A stretch of 64,000 bases of DNA from assembly GCF_027942865.1 (NCBI RefSeq), contig NC_134524.1, positions 22,745,536 through 22,809,535 of the forward strand, given 5' to 3'. The DNA is from Odontesthes bonariensis. Its lineage: Eukaryota > Chordata > Actinopteri > Atheriniformes > Atherinopsidae. Positions 2,594 to 19,279 of the stretch are shown here, in pieces. Positions within the stretch are counted from its first letter, which is position 1; each line of letters starts with the position of its first letter. Below the pieces are notes generated by a model. The model had not been told where the DNA came from, searched no databases, and was given only the letters and a program-made list of their open reading frames with translations. Position numbers and translations under genes: made by a program.

Positions 2594-3160
2594 GAGCCTT
2601 AAGGCTGACCTGTTCTGCTGTGTCACAACACAGGTTGGTGCCAACATTTGGCTGTAATAAAGAGAATTCTTTTTTTTTTTAAATAAATAAATCGTAGGCC
2701 ACAAGAAAATTGACTCAAAACCTGCTGCTATTTAGTTTCTAGCTTTATACTCATCTGGGACAGCGATGCTATCGAACCAGACGGGTCAAAGCTGCCAAAA
2801 GGACGTGTTGGCAGCCCACCGGTCCCTTTGCTCCTTCTTCTGTCCATTGCTGTGCACACAGCAGACAGCAGGTTCGACTGTCTTATTCTATTTGTCAGAC
2901 ACTTCACATACTTTATTTATCAAAGACTTTTCTCAAGTAACAACGGGGAATGAACGATGACACGGTTGCGTGTGGAAGGAAACTTTTAATACAAAAATAG
3001 ACACAAAGCTGCTTCACAAATGACAAAGTATTTCACAGAGCAAACACAATGCTGTTTTCAGAGAAAAAGAAGCTGACCATCTTCTGTGTGGTTGACAAAG
3101 TGACGTTTGTTCAAGTCTGTTCAAGCAGAGGATGTTTGAGCTCACAATGTATCAAATCAA
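2594..3160. other. No gene recognised
   Basis: This stretch holds a T-run followed by AAATAAATAAAT at about 2670-2690 and otherwise unique-looking AT-moderate sequence. Small frames here show no domain or splice context. Confidence 0.5.
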
Positions 3161-3161
3161 A

Positions 3162-3240
3162 TCAAATTTATTTGTATAGCACATTTCATGTACAAAACAA
3201 TTCAATAGAATAGAATAGAATAGATAGAATAGAACTACTT
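3162..3240. repeat. LINE/SINE 3' tail fragment plus (TAGAA)n
   Basis: An AAATTTATTTGTATAGCACA box at about 3162-3183, typical of the 3' tail of fish LINEs and SINEs, is followed by a short TAGAA pentamer array at about 3209-3235. The pentamer array abuts the 3' end of the L2 LINE and may be its own tail microsatellite. Confidence 0.6.
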
Positions 3241-3353
3241 TATTCATCCCAGCTGGGAAATTGTTTTGCAGTAGCAGCGTACAGACAGTAAAAATAGAAA
3301 TAAGAATAGAATAGAAGTTATGCAGTTATGGTATTGAGATACCATAATGACAC

Positions 3354-6300
3354 TTAACTATTATTGTACAGAGTGATGGCATGTGGCAGGACAGATTTCC
3401 TGTATCTGTCCCTTCGACAGCGGAGCTGAAGCAGTCTGTGTGAGAAGGTGCTCCGCTGTCTGTCCACTGTGTGGTGGAGAGGGTGCTGTATGTTGTCCAT
3501 GATAGCTAACAGCTTCTTCCGTGTCCTCCTCTCCACCACGGTTTCCAGTGACTCTAATTTTTGTCCCAGTACAGAGCCAGCTTTCCTGATGATTTTGTCC
3601 AGTCTGTTAGAGTCGCTGGCTCTGATGCTGCTTCCCCAACACACAGCAGCAAAGAAAATGGCACCGGCAACAACACTGTGGTAGAAGGTCTCCAACATCC
3701 TGCTGCACACATTGAAGGATCTCAGCTTCCTTAGAAAATAAAGTCTGCTCATCCCCTTCTTGCACACAGCGTCAGTGTTGGATGCCCAGTCCAGTCTGTT
3801 GCCGATCACCACTCCCAGGTATTTGTAGTCCTCCACCTCCTCCACCACCTCCCCCTTGATTTTCAGTGGGTGTGAAGGCGTCCTCTTCTTCCTCCTGAAG
3901 TCGATCACCATCTCTCTGGTCTTGCTGACGTTCAGCCTCAGGTGATTCTGTTCAGACCACTCCACAAAGTTGTCCACCAGTGTCCTGTACTCCCCCTCCT
4001 CTCCATCTCTTATACACCCGACAACAGCTGAGTCATCAGAAAACTTCTGTAGGTGACATGACTCAGAGTTGTACTGGAGATCAGTGGTGTATAAGGTAAA
4101 GAGAAAAGGAGAAAGCACGGTTCCCTGTGGAGCTCCTACGTCACTGACCACCACATCAGACAGGACACTGCCCAGACGGACAGACTGTGGCCTGCCTGTC
4201 AGGTAGTCAGTAACCCAGGAGATCACTGAGTTGTGGACACCCATCCCCCGCAGCTTCTCACCCAGTAGCAGGGGCTGGATGGTGTTGAAGGCACTCGAGA
4301 AATCAAAGAATGTGATTCTCACAGGCTGCGGCTACACGGAAACGTTTTTCACTGTAAACGATACTTTTTCTTATCGTTTCGCTGTCGCGGCCACACGGAG
4401 CCGGCGTTCCCACTACCCCAAAACGATAGTTTTTGAAAACGGGTTCCAGAGTGGGAAAGTTTGAAAACGGCCTCGTTTCGTTTCCATTGTTACAGCTAAA
4501 ACGTTTTTGCGTCAGTCACACGTTGACGCTGGGAGCCAATTTTAACACTTCTCTATTGTCTCACAGCGTGGCGTGACACAGTGGCGTGTGTATTGCATCG
4601 TTTCATCGTTTTCATCCGTTCTCGTCTGGACAGCAGCGCGTTTCCGTGTGGTCGCAAGAATTTTCGTACCCGTTTTCAAAAAAAAACTTGTTTCGTTTTC
4701 GTGTAGCCGTAGCCACAGTGTCTCCTCCACCATCCAGGTGCATGTGGGCTCGTTGCAGCAGGTAGATGACAGCATCATGAACTCCCAAGTGGGGCTGGTA
4801 GGCAAATTGTAGGGGGTCTAGAAACGTCATCACCTGAGGCCTCAGCTGGGCTAGGACCAGTCTCTCCATGACCTTCATCACATGAGATGTGAGAGCGACC
4901 GGTCTGTAGTCCTCTGGATCGGATGACCTAGACTTCTTGGGGACAGGAACCACGTGTGACGTCTTCCACAGCAACGGGACTCTCTCCTGTCTCAAGCTCA
5001 GGTTGTACAGATGTACCAGTACAGGAGACAGCTGGCTGGCACAGGTCCTCAGGATCCATGGTGTGATGCCGTCAGGGCCTGCAGCCTTCCCCTGGTGTAG
5101 TCTATCCAGCTGCCTCTTAACCTGGCCTGTAGTCACCGTTAGCTGGGGGCTGGTGTTGTTGTCCGCAGTGGAGGAGGGGGAGGAGGTGTGTGTGTGTGTG
5201 TGGGGGGGGGGGGCAGATGGAGAGATGGCGTGCAGGAGAATGCCGGTAGGTGGGTTGAGCAACTTGGGACAGTGTGGATGTGTGGGGGGATGGGGGTGGC
5301 AGGAGGTGAGCTAAACCTGTTAAAAAACTGGTTAAACTGGTTTGCCCTGTCCAGACTCCCTGATGTCTGCGTGTCCTTCCCCTTCATCCCAGTTATGTGT
5401 TTCATTCCAGTCCACACATCTCTCACACAGTTCTGCTCGAGTTTGGACTCAAGCCTCCTCCTGTAGTTGTCCCTGCATGTCCTCAGTGTCTCTTTGAGTT
5501 CACGCTGCACTCTCCTCTGCTCCTCTCTGTCTCCAGACCTGAAAGCCATCTTCTTTCTGTTTAGAAGTGCCTTCAGCTCACTGGTAATCCAGGGTTTATT
5601 GTTGGAGAAGCAGCGCACGGTCCGGGCTGGCGTGACGGTGTCCTCACAGAATCTGATGTAGTCTGTGATGCAGTCAGTCATATTGTCGATGTCCTCCCCA
5701 TGAGGCTCACAGAGTGCATCCCAGTCTGTTGACCCAAAGCAGTCCTGCAGTGCCTCAGCTGCCTCCTGTGTACACCTCCTCACTGTCCTGGTGCGCACGG
5801 GCTGCCTACTCACAAGAGGGACACACCTGGGAGTCATCCTGACCAAGTTGTGGTCAGACCTGTCGAGGGGGGGAAGGGCTGTGGCGCAGTATTCATCCTT
5901 GGCATTAGCATACAGGAGATAAAGTGTTTTGTTTACCCTGGTGGGACAGTCAACATACTGCTGGAAGTTGTTTAGAGTTTTGTCTAGTGAGGCATGGTTA
6001 AAGTCCCCTGTGATGATCATGAAAGCGTCCGGGTGTTGAGTCTGGAGTTTGGCAGCGGTCGAGCTGATGACGTCACAGGCCGCCGCAGCCAGAAGTTCAA
6101 TGTCCGGGGTACAGATCAGTTCCTTCACATGACCGGGATTGCACCACCTCTCACTCACATAAAGTGCAATCCCGCCACCCTTCTTCTTCCGACTCTTGGA
6201 AAAGTCTCTGTCACCCCGCACCAAAGAAAATCCAGGGACCTCCACGCTGTAGTCCGGAATGAGCGAGCGCAGCCAACTTTCCGTGAAGCAGAAGATGCTG

Positions 6301-6641
6301 CACTCCCTGTACTCCTTCTGGGTCCTCACCAGCACCGTGAGCTCGTCCGTCTTATTTCCCAAAAACCTCACGTTCCCCACAATAACCGCTGGTACCGCTG
6401 GTTTGTGCCATCTCCTCTTCACCCTCCGTTTAACTCCAGACCTGCAACCCCGGCGTCTCCTCCGAATCTCCTCTGGGATCACAGGCCTGTCTCCGGGCAG
6501 CAGCACAGGCCCACACAGCGCAATCAGCTGTTCACGCGTGTAAACAATGCCGCTGCTCCGTTCGGCCAGGTTCTCCGTTACAAAGAGTAGAAAAAGTAAC
6601 AAAAGAACGCGAAGAACAGCGACCAAACCTCGTCCAGCCAT
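3354..6641 (-). pseudogene. L2 LINE ORF2 (endonuclease plus reverse transcriptase), disrupted
   Basis: Reading 6641 to 3354, the first frame (500 codons) shows a hydrophobic start, then the APE endonuclease: FCFTESWL, KKGGGIALYVSERWCNPGHV, ITGDFNHASLDKTL and PLDRSDHNLV. The linker SVRDVWTGMKHITG-like segment follows, then a Pro/Thr/His-rich low-complexity tail. A second frame, shifted at the poly-G, carries reverse transcriptase blocks GKAAGPDGITPWIL, DPEDYRPVALTSHVMKVMERL and DPLQFAYQ. After the MITE the frame resumes with FFDFSSAFNTI, GAPQGTVLSPFLF, the FSDD catalytic box and the C-terminal KKGMSRLYFLRKLRSFNV block. The catalytic box is intact, but the frameshift, endonuclease deletion and insertion make the copy inactive. 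Confidence 0.87.
4325..4713. mobile_element. MITE inserted in the L2 reverse transcriptase
   Basis: The left end GCTGCGGCTACACGGAAACG and the right end (reverse complement beginning GCTACGGCTACACGAAAACG) are near-perfect inverted repeats. Both sides carry CACAG (4320-4324 and 4714-4718), a candidate 5 bp target duplication. Without the insert the L2 frame reads straight through (GGDTV then RITFFDFSSAF), which proves it arrived after the LINE. No coding capacity. The superfamily is not certain. Confidence 0.8.
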
Positions 6642-6814
6642 TGTGTAAAGCTTTGCTGGTTGTTTGTGTTATTTCCACTAGAATTCAACTAAGTTAACAA
6701 CAAAAAAAGAACACAGATTACAAACACGACGGGAGCTGCGTCTGCAGGCAGCCAGCTGTGCCAGCGCCATCTTGAAAAGATGGTTTACATAAAGATGCTT
6801 TACATAAAATAAAA

Positions 6815-7195: not shown

Positions 7196-7319
7196 TAAAG
7201 TATTAACAAAGTGTCACGTTGCTCAGTGTAAAATAATACATATTAGCTTATTCATCATCTTTGCTGCTGGAATATTGACGTTCCTGGCCACTGAATCAGC
7301 GAGAAGGGTCAGGCTGCAG

Positions 7320-7364
7320 ACCGGAAGCGAATGTACCGGAAGTGAGTGTACCGGAAGCAGGTAT
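7320..7364 (+). promoter_or_regulatory. Three tandem ACCGGAAG (ETS-like) sites at the head of the KDZ element
   Basis: ACCGGAAG occurs at 7320, 7335 and 7350, exactly 15 bp apart, forming a short tandem array. ACCGGAAGTG at 7335 is a textbook ETS/GABPA motif. A further inverted copy (GCTTCCGGT) lies at about 13736-13744. They could be promoter sites for the gene starting at 7740, subterminal transposase-binding repeats, or both. Regulatory role is inference. Confidence 0.45.
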
Positions 7365-7574
7365 TTTTCGTTCCCCCCAAGTGATACGCCACTCTGGTTC
7401 CCCCATTTGAACTGTGGAGACGACGAGGTGAGTAAAAGTCGAGTGACAACAACTTTCTTTGTTTCAAGAAACAGAAATAGTCTTTATTTATTATTACGTT
7501 ACGTTGCAGTTATATTAATTTTAAGGACTCGGGTTTTTTTTTTACTTTTGGCTAGTCTTTAGCGTTGTTATCGT

Positions 7575-7697
7575 ATCGATAGTGCTCACTTAAATGTGCC
7601 ATTTTTCGGATCGATAGTGCTCACTTAAATGTGCCATTTTTCGGATCGATAGTGCTCACTTAAATGTGCCATTTTTCGGATCGATAGTGCTCACTTA
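7575..7697. repeat. 35 bp tandem repeat, 3.5 copies
   Basis: The unit begins ATCGATAGTGCTCACTTAAA and ends CCATTTTTCGG. Copies start at 7575, 7610, 7645 and 7680 (partial) and are essentially identical. The array lies just upstream of the first recognised exon (7740), between it and the ETS-like array. Confidence 0.95.
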
Positions 7698-7739: not shown

Positions 7740-10700
7740 ATGCATGTTTCGATAACAACCTCCGGCACTGTGCCCAAAATTGAACGCTGCACGACTTGTT
7801 GCGACCAGTTTCACTGCCCTATGTGCCTACGATTTAAACCAACAAGATTGTCCAAGCTGCAGACGCACTTCGAGTCACATAAAAAAAGTGGCATTTTATT
7901 TAAAGGTAAGCATAATGTATTTGTCTGTGTGTTTGTACTCATGATTACTGAAGCCCAGAGTGAACGTGGTACGTAAAAACTTTTTTTTTGATGGTTTTCT
8001 CGAGATAACGAGATAATTATGTCGTTATCGCGAGAAAACAATGATCGTTTTCTCGAGATAACGAGTTAATTTAGCGATGGTTTTCGAGACCACTTTTCCT
8101 CCCCAGTCCGCCCCGGTTTATATGTGTTTATATGTATTTCTGGCAAATTTGTACCCATTTTTACCCCCCTTTCATTGAGTAAGGCAAGGCAAGTTTATTT
8201 GTATAGCACAATTCAACTACAAGGCGATTCAAAGTGCTTTACAGATAGATTAAAACAGAAATAAAAAGCATGATTTAAATTTTAATCAAAAAAGGAAGAA
8301 ATAAGAACAATAGATAAAATCAGTAGTTAAAATGTGATTACGTTTTGAAACTCAAGCTTCAGATTTGGAGCTTTATTCAAATTCAGCTGAAAATAGGTGT
8401 GTCTTCAACCTGGACTTAAACACACTGAGTGTTTCAGCTGATCTGAGGCTTTCTGGGAGTTTGTTCCAGACATGTGGAGCATAGAAGCTGAATGCAGCTT
8501 CTCCATGTCTGGTTCTGACTCTGGGAACTGATAAAAGACCGGATCCAGATGAGCTGAGGGGTCTGGAAGGTTCATACTGGGTCAGGAGGTCACTGATGTA
8601 TTCTGGTCCAGGACCATTCAGAGCTTTATAGACCAGCATCAGAACCTGACTGGAAGGTGTCATAGCAGTTATTTTGTTTTAAAAAGTAATTAAGCTGTTG
8701 AAAAACCGCCTTTTCAATGATCTTACTTAAAAATGGGAGATTTGAGATAGGCCTGTAGTTGTTCATTTGTGTCTTGTCAAGATTGTCCTTCTTCAGCAGA
8801 GGTTTGATTCCAGCTGTTTTTAGTGGCTCTGGAAACACACCCGACATTAAAGACAAGTTCGCGATCAGTAACAGGTCTGACTCCAAAACCTTTAAGACCC
8901 TTATGAAAAAAGCTGTTGGCAGGATGTCTAAACAGCAAGAGGAGGAGTTCAGCTGACGTAAGATGTCCTCCAGGTCTTTGCTGTGGAATGTGGAGCGTTT
9001 GTGTAACAATTCTGCTTGTGAAAATGCACAAAGCAAATCCCGCTGGTGTGACGAGCATTTAGTTTTTTTATCGAGATAACGAGTTATTTATCTCGAGAAA
9101 ACGATAACGGCACCTCTCGTGCATCATTCGGTAACCATGGAGACGGCCTGGTCCCCTCAGCTGGTTACCGATGAAGTTGACTATATCAACAGGATCACTG
9201 AGGTGTAAACGCCTATTGCGCTGCAGTCGAGCCGGCCGTCTCCTTAAACGACGCGGGCTGATATGAAAGTTATCTCTCCAAGAAAAACAAATTGCGAACA
9301 CATAAAACACATATAAACAGGGGCGGACTGGGGAGAAAAAGTGGCCTCGAAAACCATCGGTAAATGATCTCGTTAACCATCCAAAAAAAAGTTGATATGC
9401 ACCACGTCCGCTCTGTGCTTCCGTAGTGAAGAACATCTGACACCTCACTCTTCTGTGTGTCTTACTGTTCTGAAACGATGTTTATGATGTACAGTTTTAG
9501 ACAGTCACTTTCAAAAAAAGAAAAAGTTTAGAATCAGATTCTCTGCTCTGCGAGTCAAAATGTATGAGTTATGTGAGACAAATCAATAGCAGAAAATGAA
9601 AAGTTTGTACTTACTTATTTGTCATTGGTCTCTAACTAAGACGGGTTTTTTTGTGTGTTTTTTGCATGATTTTATTCTAGATAAAATAATCTGCAGATGT
9701 GGATTGACCTGCAGAGATTCAGGACACTATCATTGCCCTTTGTGCAGTAAAACTGTATTGAGAAGGCCAGACATGACAAGACACTTGGAGACTTGCAGGG
9801 GTCCCATGACTGCCGCCTCTCCAGAACAGGCCTCTCCTCCCACCCACCATGCTGCAGCTGCAGTGTCCTCCTCGGTTTTGTCCTTACAGCACGTCTCCTC
9901 TTCCACCTCAGCTTCAGCAGAGCAACAAAGCTCAACGGCCACACCTCTATCCACGCTCCCGCAAGCCACAGTCTCCACCTCTCAAGATTGGGCCGCTTCT
10001 GAGGAAGATAAAGCTGCAGTGTCCTTCTTGGTTTTACCTGCTGCCACAGAGGCTGGAGGTCCAAGATTATCCCGGAAAAAAAAACAATGCCCTCATTGCA
10101 GCTACACGTTCTACAAAAAAAACATGGTCAAACATATCCAGAGAAAACACAGCAGAAAATCAAAGGACATACCAATTAAGGATTGCTTCAGGAGTGTCTG
10201 CGTAGATGCTACCAATGGCATTTTTGCAGTGCAGAAAAAGAGGCGTTATATTTCTGTGCCCATATATGTGCAGAAAAAAACCTGGGGCCGTGTTCATAAC
10301 ATAGAGTGTGAGTTACAGGAATGCAGGCAGTGCCATCTTATGGCAGTTAGAAGTGGATTGGCATCGCCGCACTGTGACCACGTTCGTTCACTGGACTACT
10401 GTTCTGAAACGGCAACCGAGGAAGTCCTCAAAGAGGAAGTGTTGTCTGAGATGGTGGCGCTGAAAGTTTTCGGAGAGGCACAAAAGAAAACCTGCCTGAA
10501 TAGACAAAGATATGCCAAAGCAACTCATGTGCCTCTGTGTGTGCAAGTATCCCTTCAAGAGAGCCAGAATCACTTTTTCTTTTCTATCCACGAGCCGTCT
10601 ATAAATCACTACTGTCGCCTGGGGAGGGTCATGGTGTCTTACAGCAGAGCAGCGAACACTTGGCGTTGTCCTTGCGCCAAACCGAGTATGTCATGTGCGC

Positions 10701-12517
10701 ACAAAAATCTAAGTAAGTGGCACTTATTCCAGACAAACCGGGACGTCTTCAGAGCTGAGGCAGCCAGAACTGCACCAGAAAAGCACCAGAACACTGGCTA
10801 TCCGCCACCCGATGATACTTTGGGGCGGCTCGTGAAATACTTGCACAGTAATAAAAAAATCCCCGCTGAGCTACCAGATGACCTCATGAAGCCAAAGGCC
10901 CTGAGCGATCATCTGACAGAGTTGCACCCAACAGAGACCGTTTGCACAAACTGTCCGGGGCCGGTGCATCTTCAAAACTCATCAAGAATCACAGAAAAAG
11001 CCGAGATCATCACCATGAATGGCATACTTGAAAGTAAGATATTTATATTTCATCCTTTATGATAGGTTTTCAATTCTTAAAGAATGCATTAAGTTGATTA
11101 TTAAGGATTCGAGCCCGAGGCCGACTTGTGCGGTAGCTTGGGTCCCTTTTGTAACAACTTGCAGTTCTTGAATTCATGTTTTCTTTGTTCTAGATGTTTC
11201 AACCTATTACCGGTGTTGTCCACAATGCCAAATGGTGTACAGGTACCAAGAGTGGAAGGACGGCCTTCACAACTTTGATGACCATACCATATTGACCCTT
11301 GAGTTATGTCTATATGTAAGACGCAATTTGCAGGTGTGTATGTACAATAAAATTTCCTTTGATTTAAAAATTAGGGCTGGGCAAGTTAACTCGTTATTAT
11401 CGCGTAAACGCATTAATTATATAACGTTTGTTTGTTTTAAAACATTTCGGGGGGCTTTTGTGCCTTTTAATGGATAGGAAAATTCAGAGAGACAGGAAGC
11501 AGGGGGGCAGAGAGAGGGGGAACGACACGCAGCACAGGGCCGTCCCTTACGGGACTATAGCCTCTTGTACGTGGGGCACCTGCTCAAACCACTACACTAA
11601 AAGCTATACACTACTTTTGGATTCATTTTTGGATTCTGCGTACAAATGCGATTAATCGTGATTAATCAGGGAAATCATGTGATTAATTAGATTAAAAATT
11701 TGAATAGTTGCCCAGCCATAATAAAAATGTCTTCTGTTGGTTGAATAATTCTGAGTAACTTTTACTTAGCTTTTTTTTTTTTTTTTTAACCAAAAATATA
11801 TATTTATGCTTCTCTCTTTCTTTCTTCCAGAACAATATCTCTGTGTCGGAAGTGATTAACTCACTTGAGAGCCTGAGGAAAGTCAAATTTCCAGCCAGAG
11901 ACACTCTCCTTCATGCCTACTGCCACTTTGAGGCATTAACACGTCACAACTACTCTTACTACTGTCTGTGCTGTGGCTTCTTCCCACCAGTAGTACAGAT
12001 GGACCTACACAAAAAAGGAGTCTTCAACTTACCTGGTAAGCCTGTGGATGTGTGCATGTATGTGGATGGGGGTATAGAATGTGTATACATAACAAAGCTT
12101 ACAAACACCTTGTTTTGTTTTTTTTCTGTTAGTGAGTGACAAACGAGAACCCTCTGAGAACTTCACTGGTGTCGTGGACATCAAAACGTTCTGGGATTCA
12201 GTTCAACTGGAGATGATCGCTCGTGGATTTTTCCCAAGTACTGATATGCTCAGACTATCTACAGTTGAAGTTACCTTTATTTGATGATGCCACGGAACAG
12301 CTTTATCAATATTTTGTATTGTCTTTGTTGTTGTTTTTTCTAGGTCGTGCCAAAAACATCTTTGCTGTGAATCCTAGCTTTGAGCATTGGAGGCCGTGGA
12401 TAGGGAAAGATGCAGAGTTGAACGCAGAGTCCTCCACTGAAGCTAAAGTTGGAGTGTCAGAGGACCGGCTTTTTGATGAGCTGTCCAAACAGAAGGTGTG
12501 TGTGCGCGTGTGTGTGC

Positions 12518-12561
<44 letters not shown>

Positions 12562-13234
12562 AAAGTGTGTGAATGTGACTGCCTTGAAAGAAGCCACCAC
12601 ACCCATTTCTTTCCAGTGTCCCAACTTTTATGGTACAACACCTAGAGTGCATGAACTGAAAATTTCTGAATAGTCACGTGTGTAATCCTATTGTTTTTGT
12701 CATCATAAAAATAAAAGTAGCATAACGCTCTTGTCAGAGAAACACTAAGAACATTCAGTGACATTGCACTGACAGGAATTGCTTTTCAGCTCACTTACAG
12801 ATTAATGCTACATGGAGACGGGTCCCTTTCAGTTTTTATTGCATGTATTTACAATTTTTATTTTGTGTATTACCAAAAGATCTCGACAGTGCGCAAGTGG
12901 TGCAGGGCATTGAATCTGGAGAGTGAAGGATCACGGATGGATCTTGTTGTCCGGCTTGCGGTGGAAATGAACACGAGGCACTCCTATGACCACTTCTTCC
13001 CAAAGATTTGGGGAGCATGTGGTAAGGCTTACTCGTACAGTAGGTGATATTAACTTTGAGATGAATTATTTGTACGTTTACTAATAACTTCTTCTTTTTT
13101 TTTTTTTTTCATTTAAAGGTGGATGGTCAGTGATCTTGTGCCCCCATGGAGTTGTTTACAGTTTAAAATTCAACTTACGGGCTCAATACTGGTGTAAAAT
13201 AATGAATGTTTTGAATAGGCCAATAGTGTTTTAA
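7740..13234 (+). CDS. KDZ-transposase-like zinc-finger/SWIM protein (HMGXB3-like), truncated before the catalytic domain
   Basis: Eight exons join in frame: 7740-7905, 9681-11033, 11194-11333, 11831-12035, 12133-12237, 12344-12495, 12880-13021, 13119-13234 (792 codons, GT-AG throughout). The start is the first ATG after an AG acceptor, so an upstream exon is possible. Domains: C2H2 finger (C26, C29, H43, H47), C2HC finger (C74-C94), Ser/Thr/Ala-rich linker, C2H2 finger (C192-H212), a Cys-rich module (about 265-296), a SWIM-type motif CPC-x6-CAH (C385-H396), further CxC modules (CTNCPGP, RCCPQC, YYCLCCG), and a SAP-like helix pair (708-735). The last exon opens with GGWSVILCPHGVVYSLKFNL, the start of the KDZ transposase fold, then diverges and stops 18 codons later. 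No catalytic Asp follows. The family assignment comes from recall of HMGXB3/Zisupton proteins. The intact frame argues for recent origin or selection. Confidence 0.72.
7946..9427. mobile_element. TIR element in KDZ intron, interrupted by an L2
   Basis: The left segment (about 7946-8000, CAGAGTGAACGTGG then a T-run and GATGGTTTT) is mirrored at about 9375-9427. The inner segment CCTCCCCAGTCCGCCCC (about 8098-8114) is mirrored near 9321-9337. Several CTCGAGATAACGAG palindromes occur near both ends. An L2 fragment occupies 8178-9056. With the insert removed, about 600 bp remain. No coding capacity of its own was recognised. Confidence 0.6.
8178..9056 (-). mobile_element. L2-like LINE fragment with internal deletion
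   Basis: Minus strand. The 9036-8626 frame holds reverse-transcriptase blocks (SSSCCLDILPTAFF, MNNYRPISNLPFLSKIIEKAVFQQL). The 8663-8373 frame holds the C-terminal block (LVYKALNGPGPEYISDLL, RTRHGEAAFSFYAPHVWNKL). The catalytic middle is missing, so an internal deletion joins them. The 3' end has the TTTATTTGTATAGCACAATT box. The same family inserted at 16440-17153. Confidence 0.85.
11443..11600 (-). mobile_element. tRNA-derived SINE, diverged and deleted
   Basis: The minus strand matches the SINEs at 33930 and 45085 in the TTTGAGCAGG, CCCCACGTACAAGAGGCTATAG and CTGCTTCCTGTCTCTCT stretches. The B-box segment is missing and the head is incomplete. It lies in a KDZ intron. Confidence 0.65.
12496..12560. 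repeat. (TG)n microsatellite at a splice donor
   Basis: An interrupted TG/CG array starts at the first intron base after exon 12344-12495, so the donor GTGTGT is the repeat itself. Length change could shift donor use. Confidence 0.95.
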
Positions 13235-13869
13235 GGGGATCAGAACAGCTGTACATCTAGTCTCCGATGATTATCCTATGTAACAAGGTTTAATTGGGCT
13301 TGGGTATAATTCCACAAAATTACGAGAATAGTCAGGTGGAACTTTTGTTTTCTTTTTCTGTTTCTGTACATTCTTTTATTTGTGACAAAAGTCACGGCGC
13401 CGCCAAAACTCTTCCTCTTTTTTTGTGATGTTCGGTGAGGAAAGGTGAGCTCCCATTTTGTCTTTTATATTTGGCATTTTATTTTGTCAGGGATGCTCCA
13501 TGTTTTACTTTTTTGTGCTAATGTTTCCCTAGCTAGCTAATGTTTGCGTGATTGTAATCGCCGCTCTTTCTTTGTAATGTTCGGTGAGGAAAGGTGGAAG
13601 GAAATAAAGACCTTCGAAAGAGCAGCGGTGCGGTCTCCATTAACCTTAACACAATGCAGAGGTTTCATTCCGGGTACACCTATAAGTGGTCGTAACGTTT
13701 AAACATTTAACGTTTAAAAACGTCTAAAAATATGTGCTTCCGGTACACTCGCTTTTATTTTGAAAGGCTTTGAATCGACTCCCGGTCCGCACAGTGCATG
13801 GAAACTTTGTTCATGTGTTCTGTGTTCCCGTTGAAAACTGACTTTTCTTTGCTTTTTTTTTTTCCAATA
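13235..13869. other. Post-KDZ region with a direct repeat, no gene
   Basis: ATGTTCGGTGAGGAAAGGTG occurs at 13428-13447 and again at about 13578-13597, about 150 bp apart. A GGAAATAAAG box follows the second copy. The presumed right inverted end of the KDZ element lies at about 13735-13753. No ORF with a recognisable domain was found. Confidence 0.6.
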
Positions 13870-14230
13870 AAAGGGGACTTAAAGACTCAATTAAGCGTAA
13901 AGCTGTTTTTCTGTTCTGCAAGGGGCAGCAAGCAAACTGCATCTTTCTCTAGGAAACTCATTCTAATGAATCTGATGTCAAGTTTTGGTCCCAACAATGG
14001 GGTGACAAAATCCTCTTCAGTCATGGCACAAACCGTTCAGCTGGAGTTGCCATTAGTTTCCACAGATGCCCTGGTAAGATCCTGTGGAACAAGGTGGACA
14101 AGGATGGACATTGGGTTGCTTGTGTTCTGAATATTGACAACATCCTCATTATTCTGGTTAATATTTATGGGTACAATAATGATCCAAATAATCCAACTTA
14201 ATACAAAATGTCCTACTGATCATCTAGTGG

Positions 14231-14817
14231 AGTGATACTCACTATTTTTTTCACAAGAGCCACATTGGCAGCAAAATCAAGGGAAGAGCCACTTTCATGA
14301 CAACATACTAAGTCCCCTTTTGCAAATATGCATTTCTACATATAAAACATCCCACAAAAAAAGAAACGACACGGAAGCTGGCATGCATATCCTTGACTTT
14401 CTTCGTGTTATATTTGTAGTTTGTTGTTGTAATCTTAGTGAGACATTCAAGATGAGCATGGTTTTTGTGCTGGTTTTGCCCTTTTTTAATTAAAACCGAT
14501 CCATTGTGCCTGCATCTCGCGCTGGCTAAAGGAGCTAGCGTGCTCTGCGGTCAAGTGTGACGAAGGTTTAAGCGGGCTGCGTTGCCAGGTTTAACAGAGT
14601 GCCCCCTTTAGGAAACACCATTAAGCGTTAATACTTAATAAAAATACTTAATACTACAAAAACGCAAACTTAATAAAAAAATACTTAATACTGTGCAGTA
14701 TTTGCTGTGTGTTATTTGAAAAAAATGTATTGTTATTGTTACCATATTGTTATAAGCTACTATGCGAGTGTGAGCCGCCAATTAAAGCTTGAGGAGCCGC
14801 GCAATGAGTTCCTCTGA
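14231..14817. mobile_element. hAT element inside the L1-like LINE
   Basis: An exact 8 bp duplication TCTAGTGG flanks it (14223-14230 and 14818-14825), the hAT signature. The ends AGTGATACTCAC and reverse-complemented CAGAGGAACTCA are imperfect inverted repeats. It splits the LINE between its NIYGYNND and GGDF endonuclease motifs. It is 587 bp with no transposase. Confidence 0.8.
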
Positions 14818-16439
14818 TCTAGTGGTTGGAGGTGATTTTTAATCTAACCCTGATGAATGGATAGATGGCCTTCTCTTAAAAGTCTTGAAGGCCATCTATC
14901 CGATGGCCTTCAAGTGTAAAAAGTGTAAAAACCCTATCATAGAAAACTTTACTAACGGCAACAAATTGATAGATATCTGGAGAACCTTGAATAAAGATAT
15001 CAAACAATTTACTTGGCACAAACCCAATGGTCAAATTAGATCACGCATCACGCAGTATGTCACATAGACCGTGGTCTCTAATTGTCCTTTGAGTGATCAT
15101 TGTACTGTTAATCTGAGACTAAAAAACAAAGATCCAAGTAATAAATTTAAAGATTATTGGTAATCTAATTCCCAATTGCTAAGGAATCTGGAATACTGTA
15201 ACTCAATTAAAAAACTAATTTTGGATATTAAAAAGGATGACACTATTAGCACATCAATATCTGAATGGGAATTTCGAAAAAATTCTCAATCTCATTTAGT
15301 AAAAAACTAAACAAGCGAAAGAGAGAAGAAGAAACAAATGTGGTTAAAGAACTTGCGAATCTTTTATAGCAAGTTAGATTGGACTGAGGAAGAAAAAGAA
15401 AGAATGAATAACCTGCAGTCCCAACTAGCTGTGATGTATTTGAACAAAGCCAAGGGCTCCTATGTGAGGTCCAGAGCCAGATGGATAGAAGAAGGAGACA
15501 AAAATACAGCCTATTTTTTCCAACCTTAAAAAACACAGACAAGAACATAATTCAATCTGTAGTTCTAAAACTAAACGCATTTCAAATGAAGTTTTTAAGT
15601 TTTATAGTAACCTTTACAAATCCTCGTACTCAGAGCAAAATGTCACATCCTTTGTTTGACAAAATCAAGAATTTAATTCCGGTAATTGATGATAACTAAA
15701 AATATTTGTGATGAAAATTTGACTATCAATGAATTTCATCTCGCTATTAAAAACATGGCGTCTGATCGATCACCAATAACAACAAACTTCTATAAACACT
15801 TTTGGGAAGATATCAAATTCATACTGTCTCAAGCTTTAGTTGAACGCATTAATCAAAAAGAGCTCATGGAAACAATGAAACAAGGGGTAATAAAATTGAT
15901 TCCAAAACCCGGAAAAGATAAGAAAAATTTAAGCAACCGTAGACCTATAACACTATTAAATACGAACTACGAGATATTTACAAAAGTCTTGGCTACGATT
16001 AAAAACAGGTTTCTCTAAATTAATTAGCCCAACACAATCAGGATTTCTCAAAGGAAGGTCGATCCATAATAATATCCGTCTGGTTCTGGATCTTATTGAT
16101 TACAATCATCTCATTAGGGATGATGGTTTTATGCTGTTCCTGGACTTCCGCAAAGCATTTGACTCAATTGAACATGCTGTCATCATTAACACACTTAAAC
16201 CTTTTGGGTTTGGTAATGTGTTTCTTGATATAATTGCAATGTTACACACTGATATTAACAGTTGTGTTTCTCTCTCAGAAGGTACAGGTTCCAGATTCAG
16301 GGTAGAAAGAGGCAAAATTTCACCTCTTTTATTCATTATAGCCACTGAGATACTACCTATTACTGCTGTTTTAAATTCAAACATTGAAGGTTTAGACATA
16401 AACAACCACAAATTGATAATAAGTCAGCTTGCTGATGAT

Positions 16440-17153
16440 AAGGCAAGGCAATGTAAGTTTATTTATACAGCACAATTCAACTACAAGGCAATTCAAAGTG
16501 CTTTACAGAGACATTAAAACAGTAGAAATAAAAAGCACGATTTAAATTTTAAACAAAAAAGAAAGAAATAAGAACAATAGATAGAATCAGATCAAATCAG
16601 TAGTTAAAATGTGATTAAGTTTTGAGCTTTATTCAAATGCAGCTGAGAATAGGTGTGTCTTCAACCTGGACTTAAACACACTGAGTGTTTCAGCTGATCT
16701 GAGGCTTTCTGGGAGTTTGTTCCAGACATGTGGAGCATAGAAGCTGAATGCAGCTCCTCCATGTCTGGTTCTGACTCTGGGAACTGATAAAAGACCGGAT
16801 CCAGATGAGCTGAGGGGTCTGGAAGGTTCATACTGGGTCAGGAGGTCACTGATGCATTCTGGTCCAGGACCATTCAGAGCTTTATAGAGCAGCATCAGAA
16901 CTTTAAAGTCTATCCTCTGATGGACAGGCAGCCGGTGTAAAGACCTCAGGCTGGACTGATATGGTCCACTTTTTTTGGCCTTAGTGAGGACTCGAGCAGC
17001 AGAGTTCTGAATGAGCTGCAGTTGTCTAACTGACTTTTTAGGTACACCTGTAAAGATGCTGTTACAGTAATCAAGCCTACTGGAGATGAATGCAGGGACT
17101 GGTTTTTCCAGGTCCTGCTGACAGATCAGATCCTTCAACCTTGATATACATAG
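16440..17153 (-). mobile_element. L2-like LINE 3' fragment inserted in the L1-like RT
   Basis: The minus-strand frame 17207-16629 encodes the L2 RT C-terminus (FISSRLDYCNSIFTGVPKKS, LQLIQNSAARVLTKAKKSGP, HRLPVHQRIDFKVLMLLYKA, VPRVRTRHGGAAFSFYAPHV). The 3' tail with TTTATTTATACAGCACAATT is at about 16450. It splits the L1-like RT right after its LADD box. It is 5' truncated near 17150, usual for LINEs. The frame is uninterrupted, so it is young relative to its host. Confidence 0.88.
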
Positions 17154-19279
17154 ATACAACAATCTTTCTAAGAAATAAGGATCAAATTCCATTAGACTTA
17201 GAAACAATAAAGTTTTTTTCTGAGGCCTCAGGTTTGCACCTGAATCTGGACAAATGTGAACTTATGAGTATCCATAACTGTTCCGATTCTTCGTTGTATG
17301 ATATGCCTGTCAAAAAGGAGACTAGATATCTAGGGATTTGGATAACTAAATGTGAAGAAGTTAGTGAAAAAAAGAATATGCAAAATACTATTGACAAGTG
17401 CGAAAAAACTATAATAATTGGCTAGAAAGAGACTTAACGCTATTCGGTAGAACCATGTTAACCAAGGTTGAATCATTACCCAGATTGATTTATGCAGCAT
17501 ACATACTATAATTCTAGCCGTCCCACCTAGAATTATAAAAGAAATCAATAGAATAAACTTTCATATGGAAGAATAAGCATCACTACATCAAAAACGGAGA
17601 TTTGATAAAGGATTATGAGGATGGTGGTTTAATAGCAATTGATTTTGAAATTATGAATGGAATATTGAAGATTAAATGGCTTTGTTGTTTCTTAAGAAAT
17701 CATGGTAAGATATGGTTCTCGCTACCTTCTCTTGTTTTTAACAAAGTTGGAGGTATTGATTTTCTATTAGTACATGATTTTGAAATTTCAAAACTGCCCA
17801 TAAAACTATCCAAATTTCATCAACAGCTTTTGTTAAATTGTTTAACTGATGTTCAAGCATAATTTCAGCCCTCATAATGTACCATTGTGGAATAATCGGG
17901 TAAAAGAGTAGAAGGAAGTCTATGTTTAAGGAAGACTGGATCACTAAACAAATTTGGTCTGTTAGACACATAATGGATGATAATGGAAACATAGTTGAAT
18001 TGAATTATTTTAACGCTAAATATAGCATGAGTTGTTCCAGTGAGACTTATAGGAAAGTCAAACAGAATATCCCACAACTCTTTAGCCAATCAATAAAGAA
18101 CAATATCTTGAACATTCCAACTCCAAATTTACAGAAAATAAAGTTAGATGATTTGGACCTAGTAAGTGAAAAATGTAACAATACATTTTTCAGACAGTAT
18201 TCAGTAAACACCTTATATAGCAAAAAGCTCATTCATTCTCAGAGATTGTAACAAATCTGAAAAATCAATTAGGACCAAATACTTCAAATTCCCAGTTCCC
18301 CCAAAATGTAAAGAAATTCATTTAAAAAACATAAACAACATCTATCCCTAAAATGAATTTTTAAAAAGATTTCAATTTGTTGTAGAAAACTGTTGTAATT
18401 GCAAAACAAAGTTCCATAAACACGGATTTCTGTTTTTTTTTCAAAACATCCAAGTAGGCGTATTCCTCAAAGATAAAAAAAAAAAACAGAGTTCTTGGTA
18501 AATAACCTCATCATCATCACTAAATATTATATTCACAAGTGTCGATATGCCAAATCCCCACCTTCACTGCTTGCATTAAAAAATTATATATCTGTTACAA
18601 AAATGTCTGAAACATATAAATAATCCCCATGCAGATAAATTATACACTCATAGCAAATCTTAACCTGTCCTAACCCCCCTGTAACTGTTCAGAATTGACT
18701 TACCTTTTCTTTTCTCGTTTTTTATTATTTAATATCCCTTTTTTTTAATCTTGTGCATCTAAGATCTTTCAATATTTAAAATATTTATTTTTCAATAGTT
18801 AAAAAAAACACAAACTGTCCGCGTTGCTGGTCAACGGAGTCGAACGTCCGCAGATGGCTGCCATCTTACCACAGGCGGGCGCCATCTTACCACAGGCAGC
18901 TCTCGCCGACAACATTGTTGATGGTGAAACATTCAAGACATAACTTGCTTAATTCTCAAACGTTTAGGTTATTATAGACATCAAAGTAGTAAGCTAATTA
19001 TCACACTACAGACGAAGTCCATATTTAGTTTTTAAAATAAAAACGTAAATATTTCACATTTATTTGCCCCATGACTCAACTTTATTTATCCCTTGGGATG
19101 AGTCCCCAGTAGCTCCAAACACACACATAGGATCTCTATAAATCTAATATGATCTATATGCAACTACAATCTATTATGTAACTATATATAACTCTATAAT
19201 CTACATGTAACTATATATAAACTATGTTTTCTATAAGCAGACGGCCCAACTTCACAGGTACCCAGGGACCCACATTGGG

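Follow-up and report, generated by a model that had tools for sequence, protein, structure and literature searches.

The window analysed here, a stretch of 64,000 nucleotides from the fish Odontesthes bonariensis, contains a long open reading frame that could be read either as a gene or as part of a transposon. Rebuilding the frame from the sequence gave eight coding exons (7740–13234) with GT..AG introns and matching phases, which together comprise 792 codons and end with a TAA at 13232–13234. This reproduces the eight in-phase exons and the 792 stop-free codons of a preliminary description, which had seen in them either a very young deletion derivative of a KDZ-type transposon or a DNA-binding protein kept after loss of the transposase. 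Our analysis indicates that the locus is very probably a non-autonomous KDZ (Zisupton-type) transposon copy, with a protein that most likely serves no role under selection and a frame left open by chance.

Relatives of the window copy were sought elsewhere in the same 945-Mb genome, which was the only fish genome in the comparison. Of the two nearest, one (C1:1098225–1102545, the C1 copy) matches exons 1–2 with 89% identity over 1312 bp and then continues into other DNA, and the other (C17:5369546–5373128, the C17 copy) matches in pieces at 86–91%, its exon 3 being interrupted by a stop and by a gap of 7 bp. A third, L084 (G000:C13:9350000–9351800), shares the 5′ region and exon 1 but differs in the DNA that follows. 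Eight splice sites of the window copy, from the donor of the 5′ untranslated exon at 7430 to the acceptor of exon 4, are also present in these three relatives on other chromosomes, with no match in L084 at the exon 2 acceptor; the comparison ends at the exon 4 acceptor, and exons 5–8 are without a close relative. The gene consists of eight coding exons and one 5′ untranslated exon, and passages in two papers describe Zisupton elements as multi-exonic and flanked by 8-bp duplications (PMC12730594, PMC9297572). A 35-bp tandem repeat lies within the 5′ untranslated intron (7568–7697).

Decayed relatives are numerous, with at least 64 matches and 57 of 521 candidates scored, a sample that favours copies keeping the N-terminal part because the N-terminal protein served as the query. 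Apart from the window copy, no full-length copy with exons 7–8 was present among the 7/7 candidates scored (five others gave E values of 1.9–9.9), and none with all of exons 3–8 among 24/24 candidates scored, which yielded weak relatives at C1:3742350, C7, C6, C8 and other places. The 801-bp 5′ part of L084 gave 40 scored places (of 213 candidates), of which at least 34, counting its own place, reach 96%, and a derivative of the L084 type has, by this measure, recently been amplified. Behind exon 1 of this derivative, seen in L084 and the 39 other scored places, comes an open stretch (DSVEDRILQNCRHAAEWAETNKPLL...) that had no Pfam match and may be a captured exon. Two relatives on C19, L056 and L057, have open frames of 349 and 348 aa that cover the N-terminal part only (to about aa 415). 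In L085 (G000:C1:3743500–3745300) the homologue of exon 7 continues in frame into KNNYFLNM..., which we took to resemble a KDZ C-terminal part; there was no Pfam match, and the identity was set aside. Similarly, the tail of the C1 copy beyond its own deletion (L055, oriented, about 2960–3400) contains by eye a GIDCGIFMLM motif like that of Ulp1 peptidases, an identity also set aside since the Pfam Peptidase_C48 match (E 0.072) was below the cut-off.

Table 1. Features of the transposon copy, with positions in the window.
Feature	Position	Strand	Remarks
GAATCAGC	7293–7300	.	8 bp where the 5′ copy of the target duplication would lie; 3′ partner end missing
5′ terminus of transposon	7301–7322	+	2 mismatches to family pattern GAGAGGNNNCTGGCTGCAGACC
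5′ subterminal inverted-repeat arm	7340–7368	+	90% complementary to 13726–13754, 29 nt
5′ untranslated exon region	7396–7429	+	donor GTGAGT at 7430, kept in C1 and L084 copies; left exon boundary not placed
Coding exon 1	7740–7905	+	finger-like Cys/His motif
Insertion in intron 1	7939–9432	.	inverted-repeat arms 7939–7996/9375–9432 and 8059–8129/9305–9375; absent from C1 copy
LINE fragment inside intron 1 insertion	about 8178–8984		between the arms
Coding exon 2	9681–11033	+	finger-like motifs, SWIM-type motif, start of CxC4
Coding exon 3	11194–11333	+	CxC4
Repeat in intron 3	11366–11724 (limits approximate)	.	absent from C17 copy; many genomic copies
Coding exon 4	11831–12035	+	
Coding exon 5	12133–12237	+	
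Coding exon 6	12344–12495	+	donor at edge of GT repeat
Coding exon 7	12880–13021	+	SAP-like, weak
Coding exon 8, family-derived part	13119–13184	+	GWSVILCPHGVVYSLKFNLRA; possible start of KDZ core
3′ terminal noncoding region of element	13185–13272	+	joined to exon 8 by internal deletion; first 50 bases give 16 codons + TAA
MITE in 3′ terminal region	13273–13672	+	ends TGTAACAAGG...TACA; CCTA both sides; empty site in L069
3′ subterminal arm	13726–13796	-	90% to L069 over 71 bp

Judged from sequence, the eight-exon gene is the inside of a transposon, whose 5′ terminus at 7301, 3′ inverted-repeat arm, MITE and nested repeats in introns 1 and 3 do not figure in the preliminary description. The ends of the family, obtained by aligning relatives, read GAGAGG...CTGGCTGCAGACC plus the inverse, and of this terminal inverted repeat the window copy has the 5′ end and the subterminal arms only. 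Both ends were found in three of the 29 oriented rows scanned (L058, L063 and L073, elements of 2.4–2.8 kb), and all three are flanked by target duplications, which agree at 8/8 bases in L058 and L063 (GAAATCTG twice and CATATCTA twice) and at 7/8 in L073 (CATTGTTT/CATCGTTT). An 8-bp duplication is the length given for Zisupton elements in a passage of PMC12730594; it is seen here in the relatives and not in the window copy itself, where the 3′ side is missing. Beyond its 3′ arm, the outer 3′ terminus carried by the relative L069 was not found, and the window copy is therefore probably immobile.

The encoded protein points to the same family. Its CxC4 cysteine cluster, which Pfam links to KDZ transposases, is a true Pfam match (E 1.7e-8; 34.9 bits, where 26.9 is the cut-off), and nothing else in the Pfam scan of the 792 residues rose above cut-off. 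Among relatives, Cys/His columns are conserved both in the finger-like motifs and in a SWIM-type motif of the form CxC..CxH (aa 385–396). The SWIM motif and CxC modules of the preliminary description are thus borne out; its C2H2 fingers stand as finger-like motifs with conserved Cys/His columns but without a Pfam match above cut-off, and its SAP-like segment is weak in the window copy (E 0.17) and better in L085 (E 5.9e-4), although both values are below the Pfam cut-off. The sole match in a PDB search was a weak one to a finger of CTCF (E 0.019), and a search of NCBIfam gave none above cut-off.

The KDZ transposase domain itself, PF18758, had no Pfam match in the 792 residues or in exons 7–8. 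The genome contains ten PF18758 places (22/22 candidates scored), of which the window copy is not one and which have no detectable similarity to its protein or DNA. The absence of the domain is what would be expected if a deletion had removed it, and we thus class the window copy as a derivative and not as an intact member. Over a short motif, GWSVILCPHGVV of exon 8 resembles the reading frames of KDZ hits (GLELAVCRHGVL, GVEVAVCRHGVL). For the two best of these frames, 40/500 and 69/500 shuffles were as good, and at three other loci higher scores were obtained outside the KDZ frame, so short matches of this kind are cheap. The resemblance is suggestive only, and the earlier statement that the KDZ fold begins in the last exon is not secured by either the Pfam scan or the shuffle test.

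The 3′ end of the gene accounts for the lost part. The 88 bp from 13185 to 13272 match the 3′ terminal region of L069 with 83% identity, placing a deletion junction at about 13184/13185 with exon 8 on the left and the noncoding end of the element on the right. Exon 8 (13119–13234 with its tail and the TAA) ends where it does because this internal deletion fused it to the 3′ terminal region of the element, and its last 16 codons derive from the terminal DNA of the element, as the match to L069 indicates. What had been counted as 18 unrelated codons is thus a tail of 16 codons and the transposon's 3′ terminus, which rules out a genuine gene end at exon 8. Roughly 0.6 kb separate the junction from the end of the recognisable element, 400 bp of which are a MITE, and no catalytic exon fits into this distance. 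The deletion derivative of a KDZ-type transposon lacking its catalytic part that had been proposed can therefore be upheld, with its junction located. A catalytic exon further downstream, which was to have overturned that reading if found in transcripts, was sought in the DNA past the junction; that DNA is made up of the 3′ terminal region, the MITE and the 3′ arm, leaving no room for such an exon, which is thereby ruled out. An internal deletion is not peculiar to this copy, since the C1 copy, L084, L058, L063 and L073 are deletion derivatives as well.

An open frame and eight well-formed exons would fit a copy that is very young and intact only because no time has passed. Its nearest relatives, however, are no closer than 89–91%, and four later insertions lie inside the element, namely a LINE fragment, two repeats and an inverted-repeat element, so that a very young deletion copy, as earlier proposed, is extremely unlikely. 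The best identity of the intron 3 repeat to other copies is 85% over 270 bp, with 95–98% over the last 125 bp. Compared with 27 relatives over 468 bp, the LINE fragment shows 5 private changes, and compared with 3 relatives over 342 bp it shows 7; the MITE, one of the four insertions, has 13 in 400 bp against 14 relatives, the highest of 15 copies. Ages taken from these counts are upper bounds because changes that arose in unsampled source copies are counted as private too. The computed probability that a neutral 792-codon frame stays intact is 0.01–0.28 at 1.1% and 1e-6 to 0.02 at 3.25%, for between 0.15 and 0 indels per substitution. With old nested insertions, an unbroken frame would be unexpected. 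Survival by chance is easily accommodated only for a recent insertion, and this is the sole observation that speaks for a kept protein.

A protein kept by the host, with a DNA-binding role unrelated to transposition, would fit a 792-codon frame that is open in a single copy, in which exons 3–8 are together nearly unchanged as nowhere else in the two candidate sets (7/7 and 24/24) and whose element has no detected outer 3′ end. Between the window and C1 copies 95/466 residues differ, with a dN/dS of 0.57–0.73 by four methods, and against the C17 copy dN/dS is 0.52–0.56 over 219 codons; such pairwise values below 1 count against chance survival, though they include the time as an active transposase. 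The rest of the substitution pattern argues against a host role. Pooled exon divergence is 225/2061 sites (10.9%) compared to 65/800 (8.1%) in noncoding DNA, a difference toward faster exons (Fisher p 0.027; 0.10 without CpG sites; 0.28 for C1 alone and 0.025 for C17 alone) in which the C1 and C17 comparisons are not independent because they share the window sequence. Polarised by relatives, 25 residue changes are derived in the window copy and 19 in the C1 copy, with 38 unresolved, and at columns conserved to 75% or more there are 15 window-only and 11 C1-only departures. Those of the window copy include conserved residues such as H384 and C355. The C1 copy, itself truncated, is also open over the 466 codons it shares with the window copy, which like the dN/dS values weighs against chance survival. 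None of these comparisons suggests added constraint on the window copy. Domestication is unsupported because the exons differ no less than introns and other noncoding DNA and departures from conserved residues are as frequent as in the truncated sister copy; the last 16 codons, moreover, are accidental sequence. The DNA-binding protein kept after transposase loss that had been envisaged finds no backing here, and we judge a domesticated host gene very unlikely.

A further possibility is that the truncated product turned on its own family; if the protein has a function, a KP-like repressor would be the reading that comes to mind first. A trans-acting repressor, selected for a time, would bind element ends and compete with the active enzyme, as the P-element KP and 66-kDa proteins do. 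Truncation here would leave a product that retains the N-terminal parts rich in Cys/His but is without the catalytic part. According to a passage in PMC7776569, small internally deleted P copies can encode repressors, for example the 207-aa KP. There was also something to repress, since related derivatives moved recently (at least 34/40 scored L084-type places reach 96%). Against this, the excess of synonymous over nonsynonymous change is no more than an active past would leave, and the exons are not slower than noncoding DNA. That a catalytically empty 792-residue zinc-finger/SWIM/CxC4/SAP protein was selected to bind and repress the ends of still-mobile relatives seems to us unlikely, and the repressor selected for a time, modelled on KP, quite unlikely. 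If true, it would to our knowledge be the first such self-limiting product for the KDZ/Zisupton transposon group.

We thus favour the transposon copy that survived by chance. The element starts at 7301 and holds inside it the eight-exon transposase gene. An internal deletion, possibly arising from incomplete repair of the gap left by an excision, joined exon 8 at 13184 to noncoding DNA from the 3′ terminus of the same element, and the remainder of the gene is lost. Lacking a proper 3′ end, the copy would now be immobile. Any transcript of it would encode 792 residues that include zinc-finger, SWIM-type and CxC4 parts but lack a catalytic core, and this predicted protein, though catalytically empty, might yet bind to the ends of transposons. 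The open frame is most likely a chance survival from a fairly recent insertion whose source belonged to a diverged lineage.

The window copy is a genomic relic of an ordinary kind, and nothing to date indicates that the fish makes use of it. It illustrates that an open frame, even one that is long and well spliced, may in a repeat-rich region of a fish genome be the derivative of an internal deletion instead of a gene, and that an apparent gene end can be a transposon's own terminus. The analysis also supplies the ends and duplication length of a KDZ/Zisupton-type family whose derivatives were amplified recently, and the locus is one where retention by selection and survival by chance are separable with orthologues from related fish. 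Directly upstream of the element, the minus strand has open frames (3354–6668) that we take to resemble a LINE endonuclease and reverse transcriptase, and directly downstream the plus strand has open stretches (13953–18251) that look like those of an L1/Tx1-type LINE.

Among known systems, the vertebrate gene HMGXB3 is said to carry KDZ-associated domains and would share KDZ-associated cysteine clusters with the window protein. The window protein differs in having no match to an HMG box in its Pfam scan, and among the papers listed by a literature search none named both HMGXB3 and KDZ. With the fish Zisupton/KDZ transposons the family shares a multi-exon transposase gene, inverted repeats, a CxC4 cluster, a SAP-like segment and, in the relatives, 8-bp duplications, whereas the window copy departs from them in its deleted catalytic part, the outer 3′ terminus that was not found and the lack of a Pfam KDZ domain. 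The P-element KP derives from an unrelated transposase; KP and other repressor-encoding P copies share with the window copy an internal deletion that keeps N-terminal DNA-binding parts, putative here, and removes the catalytic part.
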